From positions 186,001 through 250,000 of the forward strand of contig NZ_SBIV01000003.1 of the NCBI RefSeq assembly GCF_004765795.1: 64,000 nucleotides of DNA, given 5' to 3'. The notes beneath the pieces were generated by a model, which ran no database searches, was not told where the DNA came from, and worked only from the letters and a program-made list of their open reading frames with translations. Origin of the DNA: Halorussus marinus (GTDB lineage: Archaea > Halobacteriota > Halobacteria > Halobacteriales > Haladaptataceae). The translations under genes were made by a program, and so were the position numbers. Every line of letters starts with the position of its first letter. Positions within the stretch are counted from its first letter, which is position 1. Of the stretch, positions 41,343-43,925 are shown piece after piece.

Positions 41343-42071
41343 TCACTCGTAGCTGTCGAGGGTGGCGTTGACCCGCACGTCGGTTCCGTCGCCCTCCTCG
41401 GGGTCGACCTTCCGGACCCACGCGGTGTAGCTGTCGGGGAGTTCGGTCACGTCCACCCGGATCTTGAGGACGGTCGCCTCGCCGGCCTTGGCGGTCATCG
41501 CCTCGCGCTGGCTCCGCTCGAACGAGCCGTCGCCGGTCTTGACCTCACACCAGTACTCGGTCAGGACCGGCCGGTCGGGGCCGAGCCGGACCGTCGCCCG
41601 GCAGTCGGGCACCCACCGACGCGACGCCCCGACGACGACGGGCTCGGGGTCGGCGTCGAGTTCGACCCGGAGGTCCTCGTCGGGGAGCGCCGGATCGACC
41701 CGGGCGAAGTGAGCCAGCACCGGCGGGTTCACCGCCGGCGAGCAGACGACCGCCTCGCCGAGCGCGCCGTACTGGTTCGCCGCGGTGTCGAAGGTCAGCC
41801 CCCGGGCGGGCGTGCCGTCGGGGTCCCGGCGGCGGCGCTCGGGCCACGCGACGAGGTAGGCGTCGGCGTCCGAGGGGTCCTGCGGGGCCGCCCGCTGGAT
41901 CTTGAGCGGCGTCTCGCCCGCCGCCGAGAGCTCGCGGGCGCGGCGCCGAGCGTCGGCCTCGGAGTCGAACTTGGCGGTCTCGCCCTCCGCCCGCCCGAAC
42001 TGCCACGCCGCCTCGTTCGCGTCGGTCGCGCTGTCCTTGATCGCGACCCGGAACGGCTCGTCGTCTGTCAT
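41343..42071 (-). CDS. Unknown protein with PD-(D/E)XK nuclease-like residues
   Basis: 242 aa, family not recognised. The N-terminal 60 residues (FRVAIKDSATDANEAAWQFGRAEGETAKF) look like a small domain with alternating strands and helices. Residues 150-190 show the layout of a PD-(D/E)XK core: WVPDCRATV (Asp156), a strand with EYWCEVKTG (Glu176, Lys178), then SFERSQREAM with Gln188, as in restriction-like nucleases. The following strand is ATVLKIRVDV. Nuclease activity is an inference from this pattern only. No restriction or toxin-antitoxin partner is adjacent. The ATG at 42071 has CATTCAAATGG about 27 nt upstream. Confidence 0.65.
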   Translation of the reverse strand: MTDDEPFRVAIKDSATDANEAAWQFGRAEGETAKFDSEADARRRARELSAAGETPLKIQRAAPQDPSDADAYLVAWPERRRRDPDGTPARGLTFDTAANQYGALGEAVVCSPAVNPPVLAHFARVDPALPDEDLRVELDADPEPVVVGASRRWVPDCRATVRLGPDRPVLTEYWCEVKTGDGSFERSQREAMTAKAGEATVLKIRVDVTELPDSYTAWVRKVDPEEGDGTDVRVNATLDSYE

Positions 42072-42180: not shown

Positions 42181-42558
42181 TCAGAGCCCGAGCGCCCGCC
42201 GGAGTCGACCGACCAGTCCGCCGTCCCGGACCGAGTCGCCGCCCGAGACCGGAAGCTCGCGGGCGAGCGCGTCGACCTCGCCGTCGCCGATCCGATCGTT
42301 GTGGCGGGCCTCCCCCAGCCACTGCTCCCACTCGTCGGGAGACAGCGTGCCGCGGGAGTCGGGTCCCCACTGCTCGACGAGCGCCGTCCGGTCGCGGAAC
42401 GGCACGTCCATCTCGCCGCCGCCCCAGTGGAGCGGCGAGAGCGCGAACTCGTAGTCGGCCTCGTCCGGGAACGCGACGCGGTAGGGGTAGTTGTTGTAGA
42501 GGAACACGTCGTCGGGCGCGACCGTCTCGCCGTTCGGGAGTTCGAGCGTCCGATCCAT
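42181..42558 (-). CDS. Hypothetical protein
   Basis: 125 aa, soluble, acidic, no family recognised. The N-terminal half looks like a small beta-sheet (TLELPNGETVAPDDVFLYNNYPYRVAF), the C-terminal half like two helices with WEQWLGEARHNDRIGDGEV. YNNYPYRV and FALSPLHWGGGEMDVPF are the most distinctive parts. It precedes the nuclease-like gene on the same strand by about 110 nt, so they may be cotranscribed. Confidence 0.6.
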   Translation of the reverse strand: MDRTLELPNGETVAPDDVFLYNNYPYRVAFPDEADYEFALSPLHWGGGEMDVPFRDRTALVEQWGPDSRGTLSPDEWEQWLGEARHNDRIGDGEVDALARELPVSGGDSVRDGGLVGRLRRALGL

Positions 42559-42692
42559 TCGGTCGACCTACGGTCCGGGCGCCTTTGAGCGTTCTGTCGG
42601 CGGGCGTCCGGCGAGTTCGGTCGCGAGCGCCGGGTCGCGCCGCGATCGGAGAACCGACGAACGAAAAGGCCTCGACCGACTATCGACGACCG

Positions 42693-43925
42693 ATGGACAT
42701 CGAGTTTCTCGGCGGGGCCCGCGAGATCGGCCGGAGCGCCGTTCTCGTCGACGACTCTCTTCTCCTCGATTTCGGGATGCTGACCGACAACCCCCCGCAG
42801 TTTCCGGTCGAGACGCCGACTCCCGACGCGGTCGTGGTGTCCCACGGCCACCTCGACCACGTCGGCACGGTACCGGCCCTGCTTTCGGGCGAGGCGCGGC
42901 CGCCGATTCACTGGACGCCGCCGACGTACGAACTCACGCTGACGCTCGCGCGAGACACGCTCAAACTGCACGGGGGGTCGTACCACTGCCCGTTCACCGA
43001 GACCGACCGCAAGCGCGTCACGCAGGTGTCGAACACCCACGGGTACCGCGAGCCCTTCGACGCCGCGGGCTACGAGGTGACCTTCTACAACGCGGGCCAC
43101 ATCCCGGGGAGCGCGCACGTCCTCGTCGACGACGGGGAGACGCGACTCCTCTACACCGGCGACTTCCACACCGACGACCAGCGTCTGGTCTCGGGGACGA
43201 CTGGGCGACCCGACGCCGACGCCGTCATCTGCGAGAGCACCTACGCCGACGTCGACCACGAGGACCGCTCCGTGGTGGAGAAACGGTTCGCAGAGAGCGT
43301 GAAGACGACGCTGTGGGAAGGCGGGACGGTCGTCGTTCCCGCGTTCGCGATCGGTCGGACGCAGGAGATGATGCTCATCTGCGAGGAGTACGACATCCCC
43401 TGTTACGTCGACGGGATGGGCAAGCAAGTCACCGAGATGCTTCGGCAGTATCCCGAGTTCGTTCGCGACGCAGACGCGTTTCGACGAGCGAAATCCCACG
43501 CGCGGTTCGTCACCGGACGAAACGGTCAGCGAAAGCGGATTACTGAACAGAAGGCCGCGATCATCACCACGAGCGGGATGCTCTCGGGCGGCCCCGCAAT
43601 GACCTACATCCCCGAGATCCGATCGAATCCGATGAACAAGATCACCATGACCGGCTATCAGGTCGACGGGACGCCCGGGCGCGATCTACTCGAAACCGGG
43701 AGCGCCGAGATCGACGGGCGCGTGATGCCCGTGAGCGCCCGAGTCGAACAGTACGACTTCTCGGCTCACGCCGACCGCGACGGGCTCGTGGAGCTTCTCT
43801 CGTCGTACGAGGACGCCGCCGTGCTCGTGAACCACGGCGACCGGTGCGAGCAGTTCGCGTCCGAGCTCCGGGCGGACGGCTTCGACGCGACGGCCCCGCA
43901 GGTCGGGTCGGTGCATCGCGTCTGA
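42693..43925 (+). CDS. Beta-CASP metallo-beta-lactamase ribonuclease (archaeal CPSF-like, no KH domain)
   Basis: 410 aa. The zinc-binding motif HGHLDH has His51, His53, Asp55 and His56; further ligands are in NAGHIPGSAH and YTGDFHTDD. The beta-CASP insertion (about 190-330) includes VVPAFAIGRTQE, and the C-terminal SAHADRDGL and VNHGD complete the site. This is the CPSF73/RNase J-like fold. It lacks the N-terminal KH domains of the larger archaeal enzyme (aCPSF1), so it matches the shorter aCPSF2 type, with endo- or exo-ribonuclease activity in RNA processing or decay. ATG at 42693 begins directly with the first strand MDIEFLGGAREIG. Confidence 0.9.
   Translation: MDIEFLGGAREIGRSAVLVDDSLLLDFGMLTDNPPQFPVETPTPDAVVVSHGHLDHVGTVPALLSGEARPPIHWTPPTYELTLTLARDTLKLHGGSYHCPFTETDRKRVTQVSNTHGYREPFDAAGYEVTFYNAGHIPGSAHVLVDDGETRLLYTGDFHTDDQRLVSGTTGRPDADAVICESTYADVDHEDRSVVEKRFAESVKTTLWEGGTVVVPAFAIGRTQEMMLICEEYDIPCYVDGMGKQVTEMLRQYPEFVRDADAFRRAKSHARFVTGRNGQRKRITEQKAAIITTSGMLSGGPAMTYIPEIRSNPMNKITMTGYQVDGTPGRDLLETGSAEIDGRVMPVSARVEQYDFSAHADRDGLVELLSSYEDAAVLVNHGDRCEQFASELRADGFDATAPQVGSVHRV

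Follow-up and report, generated by a model that had tools for sequence, protein, structure and literature searches.

A candidate PD-(D/E)XK nuclease of haloarchaea with an unfamiliar N-terminal domain and a possible clamp-binding tail

The PD-(D/E)XK superfamily includes Hjc, and its enzymes bear an acidic residue on their first helix. The annotated family PF10107 (Endonuc_Holl) comprises endonucleases related to the archaeal Holliday junction resolvase. Several archaeal nucleases bind the clamp PCNA, Fen1, RNase H2 and NucS being among those named in the review PMC4929162. The same review defines the PCNA-binding PIP box and describes Pyrococcus NucS as an N-terminal DNA-binding domain and a nuclease with a C-terminal PIP motif.

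Here we describe gene P0002, which lies in a 64,000-nucleotide stretch of Halorussus marinus DNA (hereafter ‘the window’). The source genome comprises 3.76 Mb in 37 contigs. The closest named relatives of the P0002 protein belong to four Halorussus species, with identities of 65-71%. The protein is organized into an N-terminal domain of ~80 residues, a putative nuclease domain, a variable linker and a short tail. Its features are as follows, in window coordinates.

41343..42071, minus strand: gene P0002, coding for a 242-residue protein, plus the stop codon; ATG at 42071
41826..42071, minus strand: N-terminal domain, residues 1-82 (approximate boundary), delineated from AlphaFold and the stand-alone proteins
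41394..41804, minus strand: predicted nuclease domain, residues 90-226 (approximate boundaries), delineated from alignments A1 and A3 and the PF10107 profile match
41754..41756, minus strand: Glu106 (YGALGEA), proposed first-helix active-site residue, kept in 28/29 nuclease domains
41604..41606, minus strand: Asp156 (W-x-P-D), kept in 29/29
41544..41546, minus strand: Glu176 of ExK, kept in 28/29; Gly in L113 (same gene as L023)
41538..41540, minus strand: Lys178 of ExK, kept in 29/29
41508..41510, minus strand: Gln188, kept in 29/29
41346..41369, minus strand: PIP-like C-terminal tail (NATLDSYE, residues 235-242), in which Asn replaces the canonical Gln

The original prediction had singled out Asp156, Glu176, Lys178 and Gln188 as a PD-(D/E)XK-like arrangement, and a script located all four residues where it had placed them, in WVPD (Asp156), CEVKT (Glu176 and Lys178) and ERSQ (Gln188). 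As judged from the comparisons below, P0002 is very probably a DNA-cutting enzyme of the PD-(D/E)XK superfamily that belongs to an unnamed family.

The C-terminal tail and the replication clamp

The linker between the nuclease domain and the tail varies in length and sequence, and the tails themselves are diverse. P0002 ends with NATLDSYE and several of its Halorussus relatives with NASLDSF, while GTLDEFT, ATLDEFG, LTLGEFQ, QTDLSDFY, QRSLEDW and QRTVDDW are found elsewhere in the family, and L064 ends with TRLDEF. Some relatives thus have a canonical QxxLxxF/W tail, whereas the Halorussus tails have no Q. P0002 itself departs from the PIP-box pattern, a terminal Q-x-x-h-x-x-a(a), by having N in place of Q.

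We compared the tails with a background set of 375 proteins from the window and the flanking loci, obtained with a crude gene caller rather than from annotation and with family members removed. For the family, 67 sequences were reduced to 48 and grouped into 21 clusters at 60% identity, each classified according to its majority; L062-L073 were mostly among the rows dropped before the counts. A terminal hydrophobic-x-x-aromatic motif was found in 8/21 clusters versus 21/375 background proteins (Fisher p 3e-5), and a strict Q-form tail in 3/21 versus 1/375 (p 5e-4), both p values being optimistic because the clusters are related. In the background set, the strict PIP-like end is borne by a single protein, encoded at 12237-12707 of L093 (minus strand) and ending with QTQQTGIDDY. 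FEN1 proteins from this genus served as a positive control: 16 of the 17 ORFs picked end with QTGLxxW, and the 17th is a wrong ORF.

These sequences make PCNA binding by the tail of the P0002 family plausible, and they suggest that the replication clamp may keep P0002 on DNA. By analogy with the layout of Pyrococcus NucS, the tail would dock the enzyme on PCNA and thereby direct cutting to sites of replication or repair. Three observations were counted against this reading. Firstly, such a tail is present in only 1 of the 20 haloarchaeal NucS ORFs picked (L168, ETTLDEF), which weakens the NucS analogy. Secondly, the tail has no Gln in Halorussus. Thirdly, 13 of the 21 family clusters have no tail by the test used; sequences that fail it include those of Halorussus L011 (DATLDEFHTGR) and of L103/L104 (RSLSSF in the end region). 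Among the sequences seen, members that end directly after the nuclease domain have no tail, and L086 (L065/L086) harbours QTNLTQF close to its N-terminus instead of a tail.

The tail-less clusters are what would be expected if P0002 were a PD-(D/E)XK nuclease acting on plasmid or invading DNA with no clamp tethering, its tail binding something else or being a mere hydrophobic end. We regard this alternative as possible but rather doubtful. The enrichment of the terminal motif and the canonical Q forms in several clusters argue against it, and the distribution of the family bears on it in both directions.

The N-terminal domain and the distribution of the family

P0002 homologues are present in 15 of the 18 Halorussus genomes searched, its own included. 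Their copies are scattered among genomes, some of them on plasmids, and relatives were found in 13 plasmid records, in 10 of which they are annotated as ‘hypothetical protein’ and in 3 of which there is no feature or annotation at that place. Copies L037, L092 and L123 are interrupted, pointing to decay in some genomes. The plasmid records, the scattering of the copies and the interruptions in L037 and L092 are all consistent with an untethered nuclease directed at foreign DNA. Other results argue against it. The six annotated plasmid neighbourhoods harbour metabolic, regulatory and transposase genes, with a SprT-like gene in one and a helicase-related gene together with MCM and orc1/cdc6 in one, and no named defence gene was found in any of the six. 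None of 24 members gave a PADLOC match, even with E values up to 1 admitted; the original prediction had placed the gene away from any known restriction or defence system. Five viral-contig scans with five queries yielded no relative, nor did 50,697 phage records.

In the loci examined we found neither a partner gene that is conserved nor any defence gene. The original prediction had described P0002 as sitting with another unknown gene. That gene, P0003, is indeed in the window, but it is not a conserved partner, being adjacent in 0/5 other Halorussus loci. Neighbour clustering led us to reject it as an operon partner, as P0003 is within the flank in L111 only and adjacent in none. It codes for a 125-residue protein (window 42181-42558, minus strand) with one homologue, in Halorussus L111, and no family above cut-off. 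In the five other Halorussus loci where the gene caller found the P0002 homologue (L106, L107, L109, L110 and L111), it adjoins an aldehyde dehydrogenase-like gene in every case (neighbour cluster c1, which we take to be aldehyde dehydrogenase). The window also encodes, at 42690-43922 on the plus strand, a beta-CASP metallo-beta-lactamase of the RNase J/CPSF kind, with the Pfam families Beta-Casp and RMMBL over cut-off. Because the spread of the family is patchy and partly plasmid-borne, it suggests an accessory, non-essential role for P0002.

The N-terminal domain has a wider distribution than the complete protein. The full-length profile has matches in 185/391 genomes of the class, and among the matches listed most cover the N-terminal part alone, with near-complete proteins in at least 38/391 genomes (39 rows, at least 200 of 249 positions) from six families. 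The domain also occurs alone, as small proteins, in many haloarchaea (loci L095, L098, L114-L122 and L124-L133). In the 28 stand-alone proteins examined, a DKRRRRL basic stretch is present in 14, a strict Q-x-x-h-x-x-aromatic end in 3 (L095, L125 and L133) and the looser pattern applied above to the family in 5. No family model matched stand-alone L098, and the neighbours at nine of these loci showed no shared theme.

An AlphaFold model of the whole protein, built with six sequences, gave pLDDT values of 70-93 for residues 1-80 (in blocks of ten), with a predicted strand-helix-helix-strand-helix-strand-strand arrangement. This domain had been called unfamiliar from the sequence of P0002, and it has remained so: its sole match was to DUF2188 (PF09954), at E 0.11 in 1/24 members, which we rejected at 13.1 bits versus a cut-off of 22 bits. 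It would recognize a DNA structure or a lesion.

Conservation of the putative active site

We determined how frequently the active-site motif occurs by chance in the background set. ‘PD-x(10,30)-ExK’ was found in 17/375 proteins, ‘D-x(10,30)-ExK-x9-Q’ in 2/375 and ‘PD-x(10,30)-ExK-x9-Q’ in 0/375. The looser form ‘D-x(10,30)-[DE]xK-x(6,14)-Q’ is present in 47/375, and the loose motif alone is therefore weak evidence. The case for a nuclease rests on conservation across homologues.

Alignment A1 contains 24 full-length rows with 37-74% identity to P0002, fragments L020, L032, L033, L037 and L038 and duplicate loci being excluded. Its invariant columns include E106, W153, P155, D156, C175, K178, G180, S183, R186 and Q188, while E176 is kept in 23/24 rows. 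Alignment A3 covers 29 nuclease-domain rows, of which 3 are from proteins with no N-terminal domain, and its most distant row is 26% identical to P0002; it excludes L082 (near L083), the stop-interrupted L092, most Halorussus copies and fragments. Conservation across homologues had been proposed from the outset as a check, and it came out in favour of the nuclease: Asp156 and Lys178, like Gln188, are present in 29/29 rows and Glu176 is absent from only one.

Further conserved residues had not been part of the first set, namely E106 in GALGEA (28/29, with Gln in one row) and W153, P155, G180 and R205 (each 29/29). Ahead of the PD motif, E106 is proposed to sit where the first-helix acidic residue of the superfamily is expected. 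The family thus combines a conserved D and (D/E)xK in order with an earlier acidic residue, as befits a PD-(D/E)XK enzyme, with the position of E106 on a helix unconfirmed by the models. In line with the roles of active-site residues in the superfamily, the binding of Mg2+ and the activation of water would fall to Glu106, Asp156, Glu176 and Lys178, and Gln188 would lie beside the site.

Glu106 is replaced by Gln (GAIGQA) in three related loci, L065, L067 and L068, and a single protein (L023 = L113) has Gly at position 176. We counted these few-copy replacements against the reading of P0002 as an active, clamp-bound nuclease. They would fit a PD-(D/E)XK-like fold whose catalysis has been lost, leaving a DNA-binding or structural protein, but P0002 has the full residue set and D156, K178 and Q188 are kept throughout A3, which makes this alternative improbable. 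On the strength of its sequence, P0002 is most likely an active nuclease.

Relationship to described nucleases

No described family claims P0002. It falls below every curated cut-off in the Pfam and NCBIfam searches, a PDB sequence search returned nothing usable, the PHROGs search gave matches at E 0.03 or weaker only, and both matches of a profile search against PDB sequences were at chance level. In the collection of papers searched, we recognized none that deals with this family.

PF10107 proved to be the best profile-profile match of the families compared. P0002 itself does not match its model (cut-off 23.8 bits), and its nuclease-only relatives L103 and L104 score 19.4 and 18.8 bits (E 0.001), below that cut-off; 3 of the 29 nuclease domains match the model when every hit with E up to 1 is admitted, whatever its score. 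The profile-profile comparison of A3 with 15 PF10107 members gave 42% (E 2.6e-4), and 58.8% was obtained with four intermediates added. With the G437 gene also in the target the value was 84.9% (E 6.5e-6), a figure that favours the match because this gene was found with the same nuclease profile. All three set-ups point to distant homology at the profile level. Controls with Hjc, NucS and FEN1 gave 0.1-0.3%, as did reversed controls, and a reversed-versus-reversed control gave 19.9%, mirroring the real PF10107 match. Membership in NucS, Hjc or FEN1 was not supported by these values.

The nuclease profile has matches in 12/392 genomes of the phylum. In G437, which is outside the order, the match (E 0.0037) is a PF10107 member in its own right (E 7.7e-38). 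L220, L221, L222 and L226 are short haloarchaeal ORFs (~176-188 residues) with the nuclease motifs in the same order and no N-terminal domain.

Structure prediction was less favourable. Residues 84-242 of the whole-protein model are almost wholly at pLDDT <50, and the nuclease domain alone gave a mean pLDDT of 34.9. Both low-confidence models have a strand with D156, a strand with E176/K178 and a helix with Q188, an order like that of the superfamily that is too uncertain to count. PDB comparisons of the first model gave a best Z of 3.2 and a best E of 0.23, which are meaningless at pLDDT <50, and the absence of a restriction-nuclease fold among the rows shown is uninformative at that confidence. 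The PD-(D/E)XK reading of the original prediction is partly supported, by motif conservation and by the profile alignment with PF10107; the repair or RNA/DNA processing role that it envisaged is conjectural. We counted the lack of a confident predicted fold against our preferred explanation, along with P0002 scores below every curated cut-off and the presence of the G437 gene in the target set behind the highest PF10107 value. A chance occurrence of the motif in some other fold would agree with the failure of both models and with the loose motif forms of the background set, but is very improbable given its conservation across 29 domains and a PF10107 profile match with flat controls.

The P0002 family shares with PF10107 the order G-x3-E, D, ExK-x-G, and in the PF10107 member L225 a Q likewise follows ExK at an equal distance. 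Nevertheless, 15 of the 16 aligned members have no Q at that spacing, and the PF10107 model has neither the N-terminal domain nor the tail. VRR-NUC enzymes (PF08774) have a similar ExK-to-Q spacing, and two nuclease-only relatives match this family weakly in the ExK region (E 0.04, below cut-off); with members in 2/148 genomes, it was too small for profile comparison. Hjc (PF01870) gave 0.2-0.3% in the profile comparison, yet some haloarchaeal Hjc tails resemble those of the P0002 family. The Hjc ends TTFGDY, KTLYDY, TGLDDY and TTIGDY (L172, L173, L179 and L180) are PIP-like with no Gln. NucS/EndoMS (PF01939, NucS_C) has no Pfam match to P0002 and gave 0.3%. As the P0002 genome encodes its own Hjc and has two separate NucS_C matches, P0002 is not a stand-in for either enzyme.

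On balance, we favour P0002 being an undescribed accessory PD-(D/E)XK nuclease that is nearest to PF10107 among the families compared and that is, somewhat more probably than not, also tethered to the clamp. A broader proposal is tentative and, as a whole, unlikely to hold in every part: in a mobile haloarchaeal family, a new DNA-recognition domain, a nuclease of the Endonuc_Holl type and a tail that binds PCNA would be joined into a clamp-guided, structure-specific enzyme working beside FEN1 and NucS. The same domain circulates in many haloarchaeal genomes as a small stand-alone protein, some copies of which have PIP-like ends, and in this form it may serve to mark or guard DNA targets shared with the nuclease. 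Haloarchaeal genetics can probe the family, and such work would name a family whose plasmid copies are labelled ‘hypothetical protein’ in 10 of 13 records. P0002 is not NucS, but its overall layout parallels that of the Pyrococcus enzyme as described in PMC4929162. If our reading is true, the NucS layout would have a counterpart in another nuclease family, a convergent solution.
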